A DNA stretch of 39,290 nucleotides from a virus. Below, piece by piece: positions 10,038-38,475 of this stretch (the first letter of the stretch is position 1; every line of letters begins with the position of its first letter). Below the pieces are notes generated by a model, which saw only the letters and a list, made by a program, of their open reading frames with translations, was not told the DNA's origin and did no database searches. Location: IMG/VR virus record IMGVR_UViG_3300035698_035383, positions 1-39,290 of that record. One strand, written 5' to 3'. Position numbers and translations under genes: made by a program.

Positions 10038-10343
10038 ATGACTGAGTCAGACTTTCAAAGCCGGGTTATAGAAACCCTTGGCGAGATCAAGCAGGACCAG
10101 ACCGAACTTTTTACGAAACTCGAACGTTGTATTAAAGACACTGCCTTAAATGCCCAAAAAATCGCCTCAGTTGAATTAGAACTTGGTGGCGATCGAGAAT
10201 ACGACGGACTTAGAACAAAGGTTTCTAAGCTGCAGTCTGCCTTGGCCCGGAATGCTTGGTATTGGTCAACGGCTGTAGGGGGCTTAATAACCGCTGCTCT
10301 TTCTTACGTGGTTAGTTTATTTACTGGATCCAACAATAATTGA
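10038..10343 (+). CDS. XhlA-like coiled-coil protein with C-terminal membrane segment (101 aa)
   Basis: Residues 1-70 form an amphipathic helix typical of coiled coils (RVIETLGEIKQDQTELFTKLERCI and GLRTKVSKLQSAL). Residues about 74-95 are one hydrophobic segment (WYWSTAVGGLITAALSYVVSLF), followed by a short polar tail. This matches the layout of hemolysin XhlA-type and other holin-associated phage proteins. It may help membrane permeabilisation or act as a spanin-like partner. It overlaps the next gene by one base (TGATG). Assignment rests on architecture and position. Confidence 0.6.
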   Translation: MTESDFQSRVIETLGEIKQDQTELFTKLERCIKDTALNAQKIASVELELGGDREYDGLRTKVSKLQSALARNAWYWSTAVGGLITAALSYVVSLFTGSNNN

Positions 10344-31011: not shown

Positions 31012-31257
31012 TTAATTATCTGTAGGATGAGGCAAAAGTACCACTACTGTTTCTTTTTTGCTATCTTTTTCTCTAATTATGAGTTCGGATGACTTCTTTT
31101 TTTCTTGCCAAAGATATTCATATACAGCGAGCGCTGATCGTAGAACCTCAGCCATGCTATCAGCTTCTGAGTATTCTTTAAGACGTTCGATTCTGTCTTT
31201 GACATACTTTGGCATTTCAAGATTTATCCGAACTTTCTCCGGGATCTTTTGAGCCAT
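31012..31257 (-). CDS. Ribbon-helix-helix DNA-binding protein (81 aa)
   Basis: I chose the ATG encoding MAQKIPEKVRINLEMP; a longer frame from 31290 is possible. The strand VRINLEMP followed by helices YVKDRIERLKEYSEADSMAEVLRSALAVYEYLW is a clear RHH (CopG/Arc-type) fold, a dimeric DNA-binding domain. A polar C-terminal tail follows. It overlaps the 3' end of a membrane-protein gene transcribed in the same direction. RHH proteins often autoregulate their operons; inverted repeats lie in the divergent region upstream (31600-31910). Confidence 0.82.
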   Translation of the reverse strand: MAQKIPEKVRINLEMPKYVKDRIERLKEYSEADSMAEVLRSALAVYEYLWQEKKKSSELIIREKDSKKETVVVLLPHPTDN

Positions 31258-31573
31258 TGTTATTGCGTTTTGCTCCTTCCTGAGATGCACTTCTAAACAA
31301 GTGCATTAAAATAATTAGTGTTATACACACCATGGAAACAACAGCAACGGTTATACCGTCGTTCTGAATTGCTATTGTCGCTATGGCAATGATTGCAATT
31401 AACTCAAGAAAAAACCTTACTTGAGTTACTCGTTCAAATATAAATTTAATAAAACCAGAGTTTACACTTACCGAAGCAATGTCAGTTCTGGTTTCTTCAT
31501 ACTTGGCGTCGAGTTTTTGCCAAAGTTTATGATCTGGTCCTTTATTGTTTTCATCATCGCCCTTTCCCAGCAT
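31217..31573 (-). CDS. Two-TM hypothetical membrane protein (118 aa)
   Basis: AAAGGATTT precedes the ATG. The N-terminal 45 residues are soluble and charged (DHKLWQKLDAKYEETRTDIASVSV). Residues about 54-68 and 74-92 are hydrophobic (FFLELIAIIAIATIAI, ITVAVVSMVCITLIILMHLF), and the C-terminus is basic. The ends overlap the downstream RHH gene by about 40 bases, implying an operon. Small two-TM phage proteins can mediate superinfection exclusion or act as toxins held by a repressor; neither is shown here. Confidence 0.65.
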   Translation of the reverse strand: MLGKGDDENNKGPDHKLWQKLDAKYEETRTDIASVSVNSGFIKFIFERVTQVRFFLELIAIIAIATIAIQNDGITVAVVSMVCITLIILMHLFRSASQEGAKRNNNGSKDPGESSDKS

Positions 31574-31761: not shown

Positions 31762-31801
31762 TTGAATTAGCGAATATTTTTTTCCATTTTCGCTAATTCA
31801 A
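31762..31801. promoter_or_regulatory. Long inverted repeat with T-rich spacer
   Basis: TTGAATTAGCGAA and TTCGCTAATTCAA are perfect 13-bp arms separated by 14 bases that include seven T in a row. It can form a stable hairpin or bind a protein pair. Confidence 0.5.
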
Positions 31802-31812
31802 AAGCATGGTAT

Positions 31813-31849
31813 AACCACGCTATGGGCAAGTATTACACATAGCGTGGTT
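31813..31849. promoter_or_regulatory. Inverted repeat followed by a T-run (terminator or attenuator)
   Basis: AACCACGCTATG and CATAGCGTGGTT are perfect 12-bp arms with a 13-nt loop, followed by TTGTC. On the plus strand it resembles an intrinsic terminator. Its right arm shares three bases with the next inverted repeat, so the two structures could exclude each other. Confidence 0.5.
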
Positions 31850-31980: not shown

Positions 31981-32706
31981 ATGAAGAAATGGACTTTAGT
32001 CCTACTCGCACTGCTCCCAACCCCACTACACGCCCAACCCACCACCATAATTCACATCTTAAATATCCACTACGTTACACCCGAAGTCTACGCAACCGAT
32101 TTAAAAGACCAGGACAGCACGCTTACTCAAGAGCAGATTGACAAGCAGTACTTTGAGTTTCTTAAAGGTGTGGAAGCGAGACAGAAGGATCAGGTAATCC
32201 TTCTCAGAAAGGCAATCAAACTATACAAACTCAAGGGAGTCTACATCGAAGGGCTGACTGAGAAGAACCACAAGGAAATAATGAAGTCGGTTGAGTCGAT
32301 GAAGGAGTACGAGAAAACTAAGGAAGACCCACCCGATGTATTCTTAGAGTTATTCGCCTGGCAAGACAGACTGGTACTCGGTGCGGCTGGTCAACTCGTG
32401 GTAAAAGGTGAGCTTGAAACCTTACTCGTTACAGAGGACTCAGAGGCCTTTGAGGCGGCTAACCCGGTCACGCCTGATGGAAAGGTTGTCTTTGACAAGA
32501 AGGCTGGCGAGAGGCGAGAGGACGCGATTGTAAGCAACCTGTTAAAGGGTAGCGAGGTGGTTGTGATTGTGCTTGGGGAAGATCACGACTTGGGTGATAA
32601 TATTAAACGGTTAGGGCCTGGAGTGGAGTATCGGCGGGTTGTTATGACGGATCGGTCGAGGAGAAGGGGAGAGCCACGAATTATAATTCGGAAGGTTGGG
32701 GAGTGA
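31981..32706 (+). CDS. Secreted TraB/ChaN-like hypothetical protein (241 aa)
   Basis: GGAGAG precedes the ATG. Residues 1-19 are a signal peptide (KKWTLVLLALLPTPLHAQ, cleavage after HA or AQ). The mature protein opens with IIHILNIHYVTPEVYATDL, and later shows GVYIEGLTEKN, LVLGAAGQLVVKGEL and REDAIVSNLLKGSEVVVIVLGEDHDLGDN. Paired histidine/acid motifs at the N- and C-termini with a VVxVxGxxHxL strand are the outline of TraB/PrgY/ChaN-type folds. It looks like an exported cargo (moron) gene expressed from its own promoter. Exact family uncertain. Confidence 0.6.
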   Translation: MKKWTLVLLALLPTPLHAQPTTIIHILNIHYVTPEVYATDLKDQDSTLTQEQIDKQYFEFLKGVEARQKDQVILLRKAIKLYKLKGVYIEGLTEKNHKEIMKSVESMKEYEKTKEDPPDVFLELFAWQDRLVLGAAGQLVVKGELETLLVTEDSEAFEAANPVTPDGKVVFDKKAGERREDAIVSNLLKGSEVVVIVLGEDHDLGDNIKRLGPGVEYRRVVMTDRSRRRGEPRIIIRKVGE

Positions 32707-32714
32707 TGAAGTGA

Positions 32715-33254
32715 CTAACCTTTTTTCTTTTTCTTTTTAGGCGGCTTTGAAACCATGATTTTTATGTGCCCTTCGTCATCGCGTTCTGCATGCCAATCAA
32801 TACCCAGTTTTTTAAATTTCTCAATTTGATCGAGCACGGTTTTGGATCGTATAGCTTCAGCCTGTGCTCGATATTTATCAGCTTTCGCTGAAGATAAATT
32901 TTCGATCGCGTCAGTAGTTGCTTGATTATGGTCAGTTATCGATTCAGTCAATTCAATTTCAACTTTAGCCTTTTGGTTCTGGATTTCACTTATTGCATTC
33001 TGGGAAACCTTCTTTTTAATCCAATTGTAAGTACTCTCAAATATCGCATAAGTTACAAAAAGCCCTGGTGAATTTACCATTACCAATAACTCTATAACAC
33101 GTGTGTTAAGAGTCTTCGGTGCATCGACATTTAATACCTCTGTTAGTGATTCAGCCCGACTTTCAAGTCTTTCATTTTCTCCCCCGATGTCTCCCAAATT
33201 TATTTTTGCAAGCTCTGGGTCTGGTCTGCCTTCAGGATGTGGTAGCTTATTCAT
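32715..33254 (-). CDS. Coiled-coil hypothetical protein with lysine-rich tail (179 aa)
   Basis: Last gene of the minus-strand cassette, coupled to the upstream gene by a 4-base overlap. It has a polar N-terminus, a moderately hydrophobic segment (VIELLVMVNSPGLFVTYAIF), a long helical region (QNQKAKVEIELTESITDHNQATTDAIENLSSAKADKYRAQAEAI), and ends in PPKKKKKKG. The hydrophobic stretch may be an amphipathic or membrane-associated helix. No family recognised. Confidence 0.6.
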   Translation of the reverse strand: MNKLPHPEGRPDPELAKINLGDIGGENERLESRAESLTEVLNVDAPKTLNTRVIELLVMVNSPGLFVTYAIFESTYNWIKKKVSQNAISEIQNQKAKVEIELTESITDHNQATTDAIENLSSAKADKYRAQAEAIRSKTVLDQIEKFKKLGIDWHAERDDEGHIKIMVSKPPKKKKKKG

Positions 33255-34171
33255 ACTTCCACTCCTACGTTCTCAGGGAGTAAGGTTTTCCCTTCAACGA
33301 CTTTCAAGCCCTCTCCTCCTAGTGAGCGATAGGACTCAGATATATAGTTGATAAATTCAGCCATCTCCTCTTTAGTAAAATCACACTCATCAAAATAGAC
33401 GGAAATTAAAGGTTCGGGGGCCGACTCCTCGAATCGTTTAGCAAGTTCTTCTGGTGACTCTTCCACCAATTCGCGTTCCCATTCCGCGACGGTTCTGCCG
33501 TAGTGTATCTTAGCATTTGTGTACCAGTCAGGTGGTGAACCGTGCCAGAGGTCTCCTAGTGGGCCGGGTTCTGACGCGTCGGTGACCTCGGTATTAAGTT
33601 CCTTAAGCAGCTTGTAATCCATTCTGGATGCGATCACGAGTTGTCTGGCGGCGGCATCGGCGGCATCGGCGGCATCGGCGGCATCGGCGGTGCTGTTGAA
33701 ATCGACGGCGTAGGCGGCGGTGCGAGCGTTTCTGGCGGCGGAGTGGGCGGCGGCGGCGGCGAAATCGGTTGCTCTGCCAGCGGCATAGATTTCTATGCCG
33801 CTGGCCCTCGTGGCATCGGCTTTGATTTCGGTTTCGGCGGCGTGGGCGGCAGCGGTAGTAGCACTGGCATAGACGGCGAGAATGTCGGCTGTGGTGGCGG
33901 CGATTTCGGCGGCGGCGAGTTCGGCGGCGATTTCGGCGGCGGCGGCGGCATCGGCCCTGGCGGTGTTGGCGTTGTTGATGTTGGCGTAAATCAGAATTCT
34001 ATATTCACTATTGAGATTAACAACCGCTTTTTTATATTTAGCTGTTGAACCTTTCCATGAAACCAAAAGCGGCTGAACCCGTAAGGCACAACGAATGGCA
34101 TACAAAGCTATTGAAGAAATAGAAAGCCCTTTCAATTCTTCCTCACTTGGTAACTCAACTTCATCACTCAT
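33251..34171 (-). CDS. Tripartite alanine-rich hypothetical protein (about 306 aa)
   Basis: I chose the ATG at 34171 (AGGTGA five bases upstream). Part one (about 1-60) has LSISSIALYAIRCALRVQPLLVSW. Part two (about 65-175) is an alanine-dominated helical region with short repeats (AAELAAAEIAA, four DAA units). Part three (180-306) has GPLGDLWHGSPPDWY and SVYFDECDFTKEEMAEFINYI followed by SESYRSLGGEGLKV. From memory this three-part layout occurs in alanine-rich hypothetical proteins of cyanobacteria and planctomycetes; I cannot name the family. The GC-rich Ala tract is compositionally unlike its AT-rich neighbours, partly because of Ala codons. Confidence 0.7.
   Translation of the reverse strand: MSDEVELPSEEELKGLSISSIALYAIRCALRVQPLLVSWKGSTAKYKKAVVNLNSEYRILIYANINNANTARADAAAAAEIAAELAAAEIAATTADILAVYASATTAAAHAAETEIKADATRASGIEIYAAGRATDFAAAAAHSAARNARTAAYAVDFNSTADAADAADAADAAARQLVIASRMDYKLLKELNTEVTDASEPGPLGDLWHGSPPDWYTNAKIHYGRTVAEWERELVEESPEELAKRFEESAPEPLISVYFDECDFTKEEMAEFINYISESYRSLGGEGLKVVEGKTLLPENVGVEV
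33650..33685. repeat. 9-bp tandem repeat inside the alanine-rich gene
   Basis: GGCGGCATC occurs four times in perfect tandem at 33650, 33659, 33668 and 33677, encoding DAA units on the minus strand. Because 9 is a multiple of 3, copy-number change would alter length without frameshift. More degenerate GGCGGC-rich sequence runs to about 33985. Confidence 0.9.
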
Positions 34172-34223
34172 CACTATCACCTATTACTAAGTTGGTTTAC
34201 TAACTTTTATGACTGCTGCTGAA

Positions 34224-35009
34224 TCATTCTGTTAGGTTTGTTTTTGTTGCTGATTGGGGGGCTTGGGCTTGGGACGGTTGGGACAGAGATTCTAATTCAA
34301 CAAGTTTTTCTTCCTGTTCTTCGACTCGTTTTGAGAGTACTTTTATTCTCTCCAGTTCTGCTAAGGACGATTCATATATTGATTTCATAGCGACATCCGT
34401 AGTTTTTAAATTACGTTCTATTGACCTCATCAGTCGTATCATTAATAGACAGAAGGCTATAAAAGTGATTATGCCAACTCCAATGAAATATTTCGCTCTC
34501 TCTTGTGAATTACTACCTTGCACAATAATGACACCCTCAGACTTAGAAAAAAATTCTGGTTGAATGTTTTGGTTGGTTATGATTCTGACGCCAATCATAT
34601 CCCCGGGGTTCATTAACCCGACACTCATTTCCATTTCAGACCAGTCACTTTTTCCTTCGACAACCTTGCCAAATTTACGCTTTGGATTAGTACTGTATGA
34701 TAGGTTTAATATCTTGAATTCAGCATTGTTTTGCTTATCTACAGGGAAAAAGAAATCAAATGGAACATCTTTGATCGGCAGGTTTCCAGAGTTCCAGATT
34801 TGAATTCTATGACTAAAAATTTCCTTAACTGGAATGTCATTAACTATAATCTTAACTTCATCAGTTGATGGATTCTTCATGAATACTTCGGATGGTTCGA
34901 TTGTGTAGGAGAGTTCCTTGTATTGAGTTGTGTAATAATAGACGCCAAGACTACACACTATTCCGACAAATAAAGGGTGTTTTATAATTGATTTGATTTT
35001 TTCGGACAT
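34224..35009 (-). CDS. Membrane-anchored protein: TM - beta domain - TM - coiled coil (261 aa)
   Basis: A hydrophobic segment near residues 10-26 (HPLFVGIVCSLGVYYY) is followed by about 150 residues with strand-rich, Ig-like sequence (VKEIFSHRIQIWNSGNLPIKDVPFDFFFPV, MNPGDMIGVRIITNQ). A second TM lies around 177-195 (FIGVGIITFIAFCLLMIRL), then a coiled coil (LAELERIKVLSKRVEEQEEKLVELESL). The extracytoplasmic domain is probably a sensor or partner-binding module. Two bases separate it from the similarly built upstream gene. Function unknown. Confidence 0.65.
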   Translation of the reverse strand: MSEKIKSIIKHPLFVGIVCSLGVYYYTTQYKELSYTIEPSEVFMKNPSTDEVKIIVNDIPVKEIFSHRIQIWNSGNLPIKDVPFDFFFPVDKQNNAEFKILNLSYSTNPKRKFGKVVEGKSDWSEMEMSVGLMNPGDMIGVRIITNQNIQPEFFSKSEGVIIVQGSNSQERAKYFIGVGIITFIAFCLLMIRLMRSIERNLKTTDVAMKSIYESSLAELERIKVLSKRVEEQEEKLVELESLSQPSQAQAPQSATKTNLTE

Positions 35010-35011
35010 TG

Positions 35012-35890
35012 TTATTGTTGATCTGTTGTAGGGTTAGAATCTATGGAAGTTTCCTGTGGGTGTTCAGTAGAATTGTTATTGCTTGAAAGCTTATCAAGCA
35101 AATATTTCACGCATATTAAACCGGGAATATAAATCATCAACAAGACCAACCAGTAAACCCAATTGATTTCTATCTTGTACCAAGAAGGCTGAGAGAGAAT
35201 AGGGAATTCTACAGAGGCCTCTCCCTTGTCGTGGACTAAACTAAAACTTGATTCCAAACTATACTGACTGGCTGGACTTGAAGAAGACCATCCGGTGACA
35301 AGTACAGACTCTTTGGGGTTTAGCTCACCAATTTCCACGCGTTTATAAGTGTAGCCAGAAAATAGCCGATCAAATTTTTCAACTGGCTCAGACATTACTT
35401 TTGTTTTTAAGCCATCTCCTTGAATCTGTATAAATATTGATTCAGGTACTATTAGGGTAATACCCGAAAGTTTATTGGTGCCTGTGTTTTTGACTTTTAC
35501 AGTGTATTGTCCCCCTATTCTCTCAAAAAGATGGGGTGTTCCGGGAAGCAACTCTGATATAAATTCATTTGAAAGATTATTTAAAATTCTCAATGTGTGA
35601 TTATTGGACTCTTCGGAAATCTCCTGGTCTTTCACTGACTCAGTATAAAATTTTTCCAGAGACTCTGATTCTAGTTGTTGGTATCTGTAGTTGAAATAAT
35701 CATCCATTGAAATTGGAAGCTGAAAACTAGTGTGTTCAATAGTTGCTGTTAAAGGCTGTTTAAGAGGTAAAACTACCCTGTCATATATTTGTATGAATGC
35801 TAATACGGTAGCTAGAGTTATTCCAACGGTGGAAATGACAGTTTTAATAATAACAGCTTTGTTTGATTGCTCTTTATTTTCTTCAGCCAA
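35012..35890 (-). CDS. Membrane-anchored protein: TM - beta domain - TM (292 aa)
   Basis: TTG start with ATGGAGAG upstream. An N-terminal TM (about 12-31, VIIKTVISTVGITLATVLAFIQI) is followed by about 200 residues ending in a beta-rich region (GGQYTVKVKNTGTNKLSGITLIVPESIF, KRVEIGELNPKESVLVTGW). A second TM lies at about 243-264 (VYWLVLLMIYIPGLICVKYLL), then a polar tail. It shares the TM-beta-TM layout with the next gene and lies 2 bases from it, so the pair likely acts together. The VKNTG and INPKE-type segments recall adhesin-like beta domains. Unknown function. Confidence 0.65.
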   Translation of the reverse strand: MAEENKEQSNKAVIIKTVISTVGITLATVLAFIQIYDRVVLPLKQPLTATIEHTSFQLPISMDDYFNYRYQQLESESLEKFYTESVKDQEISEESNNHTLRILNNLSNEFISELLPGTPHLFERIGGQYTVKVKNTGTNKLSGITLIVPESIFIQIQGDGLKTKVMSEPVEKFDRLFSGYTYKRVEIGELNPKESVLVTGWSSSSPASQYSLESSFSLVHDKGEASVEFPILSQPSWYKIEINWVYWLVLLMIYIPGLICVKYLLDKLSSNNNSTEHPQETSIDSNPTTDQQ

Positions 35891-35943
35891 AATTTCTCTC
35901 CATTTTGTAGTTAGTTCCTATTACTAGAACGCACCTACTCATC

Positions 35944-35968
35944 ACTTGGATTAAAAAAATATCCAAGT
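35944..35968. terminator. Inverted repeat downstream of the cassette's first gene
   Basis: ACTTGGAT and ATCCAAGT, 8-bp arms, 9-nt A/T spacer, followed on the plus strand by TTTTATT. It lies just after the stop of the minus-strand gene 35970-36539 and may partially terminate or separate it from the following four genes. Confidence 0.4.
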
Positions 35969-35969
35969 T

Positions 35970-36539
35970 TTATTCTTTAAAGAACACCGGATTCAAATCA
36001 AGGTCGTCTGAGATTGAGAAAACGTCAGTGAATATGAAATTGTCCCAGTTGATTCTATCGACAGTTGCCTTGTTGTAAGTGGTAGTAACGATCAGGGTTT
36101 CATTACTATTACCAAAAGTATCTACCAGAGCTGCTGATACTTTCACTGTAATCGAACCATATTCATAGCCCGAGTTCTTGACCGCTTCCAGTGTGTCGGT
36201 GACATCGGTTTGAATACCGGTCTTTGCCATTGATGGTGTCAAATTGTCGTCAGCGAAAATGTAGACGTCGATGTCGCTGCCTGACATTTTGATCTCAACA
36301 CGCTGGTTACCACGATTAGATTTGCCAAGAGTTTTTTCGATGTCGTGGTTCAGTCGCTCAACTGAACCTTTCGGCATTTCCTTATCTAGCTTTTCCTGTG
36401 CTACCTTTTGGGCTTCTTGGTACTCATCGACTTTTTTAATCGTCGTGTCGATTCCTTTAAACATCAGGAACCCACCAAGGATTATTATAAATAGACAGCC
36501 AAAAGCCATCTGACCACAGCCCGCTTTCTTCTTTGCCAC
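35970..36539 (-). CDS. Single-TM exported hypothetical protein (189 aa)
   Basis: I chose the GTG at 36539 (GAGAG eight bases upstream) over the TTG at 36554. The N-terminus is basic, then a TM (FGCLFIIILGGFLMFKGI), a helical spacer, and a beta domain with RVEIKMSGSDIDVYIFADDNLTPSM, SITVKVSAALVDTFGNSNETLIVTTTYNKATVDRINWDNFIF and FSISDDLDLNPVFF. The final motif set (NLT, LVDxxGN, ATVDxINWxxFxF, SDDxxxxPxF) recalls a domain in proteins of mobile elements and actinobacteria. First gene of the minus-strand cassette. Confidence 0.65.
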   Translation of the reverse strand: MAKKKAGCGQMAFGCLFIIILGGFLMFKGIDTTIKKVDEYQEAQKVAQEKLDKEMPKGSVERLNHDIEKTLGKSNRGNQRVEIKMSGSDIDVYIFADDNLTPSMAKTGIQTDVTDTLEAVKNSGYEYGSITVKVSAALVDTFGNSNETLIVTTTYNKATVDRINWDNFIFTDVFSISDDLDLNPVFFKE

Positions 36540-36906
36540 TGCTGATTCTCTCAATAAAGCGTGCCTGCTTTATTCTTCCAGTTATGACCTACAACCAGCC
36601 TACCAAAGCCTCATTCCTGATCAACTGTCAGATGAAAATGAGATCACATATTTACCCAAAATGTTAAAATATAACGGCAATCTTATTGACTGTACATTTC
36701 GGTTTGATATACTAGTCTATCGCTGTTAATTGATTCCAAATTTGCCTGGTGGCAACCGCGTTTGGCTCGCTGAAAGTAGCCAAAACCTCAACGCTTTTCT
36801 TCGTTCGGCCTGTATCGGAATCCGGGTCAAATCCAATCCCACGGAAGTCAGTAGCGTGTCTGCGTATGCCTGCTGAGCGGCTACCTCTGCGCAATGAGGT
36901 GATTCA
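36540..36906. other. Divergent regulatory region with plus-strand promoter
   Basis: No supported gene in 367 bases. It holds an inverted repeat (AATAAAGC/GCTTTATT, 36553-36574) just upstream of the minus-strand cassette start and a sigma70-type promoter facing right (36686-36713). Two 60-64 residue minus frames here overlap the promoter and have no ribosome sites. Confidence 0.55.
36686..36713 (+). promoter_or_regulatory. Sigma70-type promoter for the regulatory module
   Basis: TTGACT (-35, 36686-36691), 16-bp spacer, TATACT (-10, 36708-36713): each one mismatch from consensus. The expected start is near 36720, giving a leader of about 190 bases before the LexA-like gene. Confidence 0.6.
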
Positions 36907-37247: not shown

Positions 37248-37509
37248 CTGCGTCTTTTGTGTACATCATAAGAAAACGTTACATATGAATTCCCACTTTC
37301 TACAAGTCACCAAAACTATACGATCTATGCTTGAGTGTTAAATGTAAAAATAGGATCTGATTTTGTTTTTTCTATGTATGACGTTAGGTTTTGGTTTGCA
37401 TATCTTTTGCGATGTCAACTAAGCTTTGGCCACCGAAATAAAATTCAACACAACAACTGATTCCAAACGCGAAACAATCTCTTTCGATAAATTACAGCGA
37501 GGGACAATT

Positions 37510-38475
37510 ATGGAACGAGAAGATTTATACCGGAAAGACCTTCCCTTATATCTATATTACGAGACAGAACCACAAGTAGTGAGGCGACTAATAAATGATA
37601 AAGTCGAACTTAGCTATTGCCTAATTTTATGGAATTATGAAGCGATCACTCGATGTGAGCCATATATCCAAGATAGAAACATATTTCGAAAACTAGTTGA
37701 TGGTCGAATATCGTTTCATGAAACCAAAGCAAGCGGAAAACTTGATATCTATGGCCACTTAAACTTCTGCGTCCGGAATTTTCAAGAAGAAGGTTTAGCT
37801 GCTATAAAATCAAATGAGGACTATTTTGATGTACTTGCAATTTATAATTGTATATTCCAAAAATTAACGATTTGTTTAACTCGGATCGGTTCAATGAATG
37901 GGCTTTCCCTTCCTCGTCTTTGGGACTTTTATCTTCGCACTGTAGAACTGGGCGAATCTCTATGGGATTTTGAATCTAATGTTCCTTATACCGTTGGGGA
38001 ATATGGTAACTGCGAATCAGAAGAAGAATTTAACGATCTAAATACTCGGGACCATTTAATGCGGGCAATGATCGAATTAGACATGCTGGTGGCTAAAGTA
38101 AATCCAGACTTGCTAGTTTGGGGAGAACCTTATTTCAATTCTACAGAAGGGTTGGTAATCCAAAAAGACGAATACCCGGACTGTTCAATTAAGGTCCCTC
38201 AAGAGTTTTGTGATTCCAACTCAAAACCAATAGGACCGCTTCGGGGAAATGGTAATGATTTAGGAAAAGCGATTACTGGCGGTGATCGGAGAACCCTAAA
38301 AACTCATTTTGAAGGTAAGGCCATTTTTATAAGGAAAAGAGCAGCACACCACCTGGAAGTGTTTTTTACAAGCATTGATGAATATGAAAGATCAAAACAA
38401 AGCTTAGATGAAATCATTACCAAAAAGAGACAGCGAAAGCGGCACAAAACGACGGAACCCGACATGGATGAATAA
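37510..38475 (+). CDS. Hypothetical protein with possible C-terminal HTH-like region (321 aa)
   Basis: I chose the ATG at 37510 because GAGGG lies 6 bases upstream; a longer TTG start at 37426 is possible. Much of the sequence is helical and acidic (LWDFYLRTVELGESLWDF, MRAMIELDMLVAKVNPD). The C-terminal part NDLGKAITGGDRRTLKTHFEGKAIFIRKRAAHHLEVFFTSIDEYERSK resembles a specialised HTH (LGKAIGxxRRTLxxxxxxG) with a basic wing. A very basic tail follows. I recall similar C-termini in hypothetical planctomycete proteins. Probably a DNA-binding regulator. Confidence 0.6.
   Translation: MEREDLYRKDLPLYLYYETEPQVVRRLINDKVELSYCLILWNYEAITRCEPYIQDRNIFRKLVDGRISFHETKASGKLDIYGHLNFCVRNFQEEGLAAIKSNEDYFDVLAIYNCIFQKLTICLTRIGSMNGLSLPRLWDFYLRTVELGESLWDFESNVPYTVGEYGNCESEEEFNDLNTRDHLMRAMIELDMLVAKVNPDLLVWGEPYFNSTEGLVIQKDEYPDCSIKVPQEFCDSNSKPIGPLRGNGNDLGKAITGGDRRTLKTHFEGKAIFIRKRAAHHLEVFFTSIDEYERSKQSLDEIITKKRQRKRHKTTEPDMDE

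Follow-up and report, generated by a model that had tools for sequence, protein, structure and literature searches.

Temperate phages keep superinfection-exclusion and conversion genes beside their repressor, integrase and endolysin genes. A well-described case is Ltp of Streptococcus phage TP-J34, a lipoprotein whose gene lies next to int in the lysogeny module and which blocks DNA injection (PMC3952083). A different kind of system is represented by the bacterial conflict systems with TRADD-N and effector-associated domains, in which domains such as TRADD-N, EAD, caspase and TIR are found (PMC8195603). The locus compared here with these systems comprises five minus-strand genes, A to E (positions 32,715-36,539), in a virus record of 39,290 bases, called the window below. 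An earlier note had read them as a five-gene cassette and a candidate for one undescribed, envelope-associated accessory system of a temperate phage.

Layout and composition of the region

The source of the record is an uncultured tailed phage. According to PHROGs, the plus-strand backbone encodes a Sak4-like annealing protein, SSB, helicase, primase, RusA and a holin-like protein, as well as terminase, portal, head protease, tape measure, tail proteins and a DNA methyltransferase. The helicase is closest to those of Roseobacter, Acinetobacter, Synechococcus and Xanthomonas phages (about 40%). The terminase has its nearest viral relative in IMGVR_UViG_3300020156_000053 (43%), a record with no match to any ORF of the right arm of the window, and distant kin (25%) in phages such as D3112 and DMS3; no terminase relatives were found in the genome contigs. 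Scans detected no tRNA and no Rfam family. PHROGs recognised neither an integrase nor a repressor in the window, which leaves the description of this phage as temperate without a marker gene.

All five ORFs are present. Gene A (35970-36539) begins with GTG, and a TTG at 36554 would lengthen it. Gene B (35012-35890, 292 aa) begins with TTG and gene C (34224-35009) with ATG. For gene D (33251-34171) we chose an ATG preceded by AGGTGA, the listed GTG at 34180 being an alternative start, and gene E (32715-33254) begins with an ATG after GTAGGAG. These starts give gaps of 79 (A-B), 2 (B-C), 52 (C-D) and -4 bases (D-E), exactly as reported earlier. Genes B and C, separated by 2 bases, and D and E, overlapping by 4, look translationally coupled. 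Genes A, C and D can be taken as real because relatives were found, and the case for B and E rests on their length, spacing, start sites and architecture. At least one hydrophobic stretch is seen in A, B, C and E, and none in D.

The five genes differ in composition. Across 17 backbone genes, the third-position GC content (GC3) lies between 0.39 and 0.53. Gene A, with a GC3 of 0.476, falls within this range and has a synonymous codon preference like that of the backbone, whereas B (0.322), C (0.349) and E (0.313) fall well outside it. The value for D (0.536) is explained by its alanine-rich middle part, which is written almost wholly with GCC codons. Composition thus suggests that A is resident and that B, C and E were acquired, with the difference possibly reflecting amino-acid content as well as origin. 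Just 3' of the gene A stop lies a perfect 8-bp hairpin on the minus strand (ACTTGGAT / ATCCAAGT, 9-base loop, 35944..35968); the RNA fold of the whole 82-base stretch has z = -2.23. The hairpin is followed by no T run and is absent from the terminator scan list, hence it is not a textbook terminator, and it may mark a boundary between A and B-E. Because of this hairpin and of the composition of A, unlike that of B, C and E, the supposed cassette is probably two acquisitions joined together. The explanation that we prefer, with about an even chance of being correct, is that this is a mosaic accessory (moron) region, in which a resident exclusion-type gene A stands beside separately acquired genes B-E, and not one system.

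Upstream of gene A, at 36668-36713, promoter-like sites overlap on both strands, TTGACT-16-TATACT with TG on the plus strand and TGTACA-17-TATATT on the minus strand. The number of promoter-like sites in the surrounding region does not exceed that in shuffled sequences, and the promoter and terminator scans likewise gave results at the shuffle level.

Several features flank the five genes. On the minus strand, positions 31012-31573 hold a ribbon-helix-helix-like protein gene (phrog_8557, E=1.9e-6), preceded and overlapped by a gene for a 118-aa protein with a hydrophobic stretch. The GC3 of this pair (0.30-0.34) is low, like that of B, C and E, and the pair may have been acquired together with them. 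Two neighbouring near-perfect, operator-like palindromes (31762-31849; 16-base arms 94%, 17-base arms 88%) lie beside a TTGACA-16-AATACT site in the divergent intergenic region upstream of the pair. Between the two minus-strand blocks, the plus strand encodes a probably secreted protein of 241 aa (31981-32706, GC3 0.556) with a signal peptide-like N-terminus (MKKWTLVLLALLPTPLHA), for which neither a family match nor a plasmid relative was found. At the right end lies the plus-strand gene for a 349-aa orphan (37426-38475, GC3 0.324), for which Pfam, PHROGs, NCBIfam and PADLOC all gave no match.

Gene A and its phage relatives

The gene A protein has an N-terminal membrane helix (residues 6-34) and a beta-beta-alpha-beta-beta C-terminal domain that is predicted to face outside. 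Its N-terminus (MAKKKAGCGQMAFGCLFIIILGG) is a transmembrane segment without a lipobox. The AF2 model has a pLDDT of about 86-97 over most of residues 81-180; in it, two strands and a long helix are followed by another two strands, both long, and then by a short helix and one more strand. A fold search with this model against PDB gave nothing at E<=0.001, the best TM-scores being about 0.3, and the best viral match is an uncharacterised siphovirus protein.

Gene A matches three PHROGs families, all of unknown function: phrog_8263 (E=5.5e-7), phrog_25008 (1.4e-5) and phrog_25219 (9.7e-4). As a single sequence it has no close relatives in viral contigs. By tblastn, relatives were found in two isolate phages, ORF25 of Geobacillus virus E2 (ABI36843.1) and gp24 of Parageobacillus phage NIIg3.2 (UYL93717.1), both with E about 1e-7, and at 13 IMG/VR loci, one of which (L013) is Geobacillus virus E2 itself. 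Common to the relatives is a C-terminal domain in which the motifs LVDxxGN and KINWxNF occur. The N-terminal anchor varies: most have transmembrane helices, and apparent lipoprotein signals are seen in L011, L019, L022 and NIIg3.2. Members of the family come from phages with Gram-positive hosts and from at least one contig of high G+C.

The genomic setting of these relatives is a telling indication of function. At L009, L010, L011 and L022 they lie within the lysogeny module. The order at L010 is repressor, gene A homologue, serine integrase; a repressor is located directly upstream of the homologue at L011 and two genes upstream at L022. In NIIg3.2 the homologue follows a repressor and a recombinase, and in Geobacillus virus E2 it stands between an amidase and a recombinase. 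An endolysin or amidase precedes it by one or two ORFs at L017 and L019. Gene A in the window is beside neither an integrase nor a repressor.

Because the relatives sit where exclusion and conversion genes are kept, with Ltp as a precedent, exclusion is the likeliest function of gene A. Gene A is probably a lysogenic-conversion protein of the superinfection-exclusion type, with the exclusion activity itself being what we infer from the family, its anchoring and its location. Thus, the superinfection barrier proposed earlier for all five genes gains indirect support for gene A only, from relatives beside repressor, integrase and endolysin genes. In the proposed scheme, A would be a long-resident phage gene encoding an inner-membrane protein with its alpha/beta C-terminal domain turned outward, and would most likely hinder DNA entry or adsorption of other phages as a form of lysogenic conversion.

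Another possible interpretation is that gene A and its neighbours encode late structural or lysis-related membrane proteins, for example spanin-like or virion-associated ones. Several relatives do come after endolysin genes, and a spanin-like layout would likewise combine an anchor in the inner membrane with a domain outside it. However, gene A is on the minus strand, opposite to the late genes, the relatives at L009 and L010 lie inside repressor-integrase operons, which are not expressed late, and the holin-like gene of this phage is located elsewhere (10038-10343, plus strand). We consider this interpretation very unlikely.

The members of the gene A family are little-noticed phage proteins, anchored by membrane or lipid, that are repeatedly encoded beside repressor, integrase and endolysin genes, and together they offer inexpensive candidates for assays of superinfection exclusion.

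Genes B to E and their cellular relatives

By hydropathy, gene B consists of a transmembrane segment (12-36), an outside domain with a beta-rich stretch and a second transmembrane segment (242-266). Searches of viral contigs, phages and plasmids gave it no match, and nothing in Pfam or NCBIfam was above cut-off. Two matches in Bacteroidota genomes at E=0.005 were rejected, one being a methyltransferase-like protein and the other a broken frame. Gene B appears to be an orphan in the collections searched.

Gene C has a similar general plan, and the earlier observation that B and C share little visible sequence held, with no similarity detectable between them. Its N-terminal transmembrane segment (about 12-29) is a helix in AF2 below the 1.6 hydropathy cut; a beta-rich outside domain with NSGN and LMNPGD motifs, a second transmembrane segment (171-198) and a cytoplasmic helix or coiled coil follow. 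The single-sequence model of C (pLDDT 52) was too poor for use. No close relatives of C as a single sequence were found in viral contigs. A weak relative is the Scytonema plasmid protein BAZ19491.1 (30% identity, E=0.008), which has the N-S-G-N and N-P-G-D motifs in common with C. A two-row profile also retrieved a Bacteroidota chromosomal protein of the same plan (L044, E=4.8e-5). It is encoded by a lone gene among ordinary genes, by a ribonucleotide reductase-like gene, and no A, B, D or E was found in its neighbourhood.

Gene D has an N-terminal region, an alanine-rich, GCC-biased middle part with 9-base GGCGGCATC-like repeats and a C-terminal beta-alpha-beta-like domain; its alanine-rich character, pointed out earlier, is confirmed at 21% alanine. 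On the plus strand, antisense to the alanine-rich part, a glycine-rich frame of 135 aa is open (33641-34048); it is almost certainly just a consequence of the GCC repeats. The C-terminal domain (residues 253-296, numbered from the GTG at 34180) is 44% identical to the C-terminus of a protein from a Rhodothermales MAG (L024; E=2.6e-5 over the whole genome), the N-terminal half of which is Clp_N (Pfam E=2e-20). This protein was first fished out with a bait alignment of motif variants, and the relation was tested afterwards with the window sequence alone; in viral contigs, bait alignments with such variants retrieved nothing. A profile search found the domain in two more genomes of the same class (L029 and L030). 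In all three, a coiled-coil gene directly follows and overlaps the D-like gene, the three loci being orthologous and counting as one evolutionary case.

With a single sequence as query, the domain was not found in 295 other genomes of the phylum, and the profile gave no further convincing match among 345 genomes; more distant matches (E 0.002-0.05) were not accepted. With the alanine-rich part masked, D has no plasmid relatives, and its tail has none in phages. D had no Pfam match, and its C-terminal pieces had none even at E<=10 except DUF5897 at 0.28; Pfam may lack the bacterial versions of adaptor and effector domains such as TRADD-N, EAD, caspase and TIR. TRADD-N was considered from the literature and was unsupported.

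Gene E encodes a helical, coiled-coil protein with one weak hydrophobic stretch (53-72). No close relatives were found in viral contigs (as a single sequence) and none in plasmids, and E has no detectable similarity to the coiled-coil partner at L024. Because E has no detectable relation to that partner, the correspondence between D-E and the Rhodothermales pair is an analogy of arrangement. Tentatively, D-E may be described as a pair of genes in which the adaptor domain stays constant and the helical front part can be exchanged, a description that we regard as provisional.

The settings of these cellular relatives bring in the alternative that B-E are ordinary host chromosomal genes, carried by chance or belonging to flanking host DNA that became joined to the phage, and serve neither the phage nor defence. 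The low GC3 relative to the backbone agrees with it, as do the lone C-like gene in Bacteroidota and the position of the D-like pair of Rhodothermales among housekeeping genes. On the other hand, B-E are intact and tightly spaced between a phage-like methyltransferase and gene A, and their frames have been kept open, which suggests selection. This origin is rather unlikely in our view, with a chance that is far from negligible.

One system or a mosaic

Profile and structure searches thus yielded relatives for A, C and D, none for B and E, and no PDB fold for A. When A-E were compared by tblastn with the loci fetched by then, no locus gave convincing scores for two or more of them: A turned up in A loci and nowhere else, C was confined to the Scytonema locus and D to those of Rhodothermales. 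The sample was limited, with planctomycetes, myxobacteria and most proteobacteria outside it. The earlier note had named homologues that never co-occur as grounds for giving up its proposal, and the absence of any co-occurrence within this limited sample comes close to that outcome.

The proposal that A-E form one envelope-associated anti-phage system, with A, B and C sensing phage at the membrane and D-E as a cytoplasmic effector or signalling pair, is improbable. The genes are closely spaced on one strand, all but D encode at least one hydrophobic stretch, and the C-terminal domain of D is attached elsewhere to an unrelated N-terminal domain, an exchange of the kind known from conflict systems. 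Against this stand the composition of A, unlike that of B-E, and the distribution of relatives, with A loci lacking B-E, C relatives standing alone and Rhodothermales D-like genes lacking A-C. Moreover, no nuclease, protease, NTPase or pore motif was found in A-E, nothing was matched above cut-off in Pfam or NCBIfam, and PADLOC-DB 2.0 gave no defence family, only weak stray matches (cyclase for A, 0.0062; Cmr5 for E, 0.0057). Matches in Pfam, NCBIfam or PDB to TraL, IF-6, Cmr5, ribosomal uL18 and a surface-layer protein were rejected as chance-level or as due to helical or low-complexity stretches.

GC3, the hairpin after A and the absence of B-E from every A locus are the reasons for separating A from B-E in the mosaic that we prefer. 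B-E would have arrived in a separate acquisition, as one transcription unit of low G+C encoding membrane and helical proteins of a cell-like kind. Beta-rich domains of B and C would lie outside the membrane, and D-E would act as a translationally coupled, helical adaptor-type pair with the small C-terminal domain of D as its constant part; possibly, the envelope is sensed by B and C, with D-E relaying the signal. A stronger version, in which B-E are an undescribed membrane-to-cytoplasm signalling or anti-phage module, with B and C as sensors acting on D-E and the D domain, common with distant bacteria, exchanging its fronts, has in our judgement a small probability. The accessory, envelope-associated character suggested earlier is supported. 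The region appears to be fairly ordinary phage cargo, and no evidence was obtained for the five genes as one new system. Neither the gene A family nor D-E is yet a new system; they provide the most useful leads, namely the gene A family itself and the D-type C-terminal domain.

Comparison with known systems places each part separately. Gene A and Ltp of phage TP-J34 (PMC3952083) can be compared only in the way they may work: no sequence relation was found, and A has a transmembrane helix, not a lipobox. The likeness is that of a phage protein tethered outside the cytoplasmic membrane, the location of the gene in a lysogeny module being a feature of the relatives of A. With these relatives (the PHROGs families, Geobacillus virus E2 and NIIg3.2) gene A shares a homologous C-terminal domain and a membrane or lipid N-terminal anchor. 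Most of them belong to phages of Gram-positive bacteria, and they lie in lysogeny or lysis-integration regions, whereas gene A is the first gene of a minus-strand block in a phage for which no integrase was recognised. BAZ19491.1 and the Bacteroidota protein resemble C in the short N-terminal transmembrane segment and in the N-[SA]-GN motif of a beta-rich outside domain, but have no C-terminal coiled coil of equal length and are not next to B, D or E. The Rhodothermales unit differs from D-E in having a Clp_N front instead of an alanine-rich region, a partner not detectably related to E, and no B or C. It nevertheless has in common with D-E the C-terminal domain of D (41-44% identity over about 44 residues) and, next to it, a helical gene that overlaps, which suggests a small adaptor domain placed on different front domains across distant bacteria.
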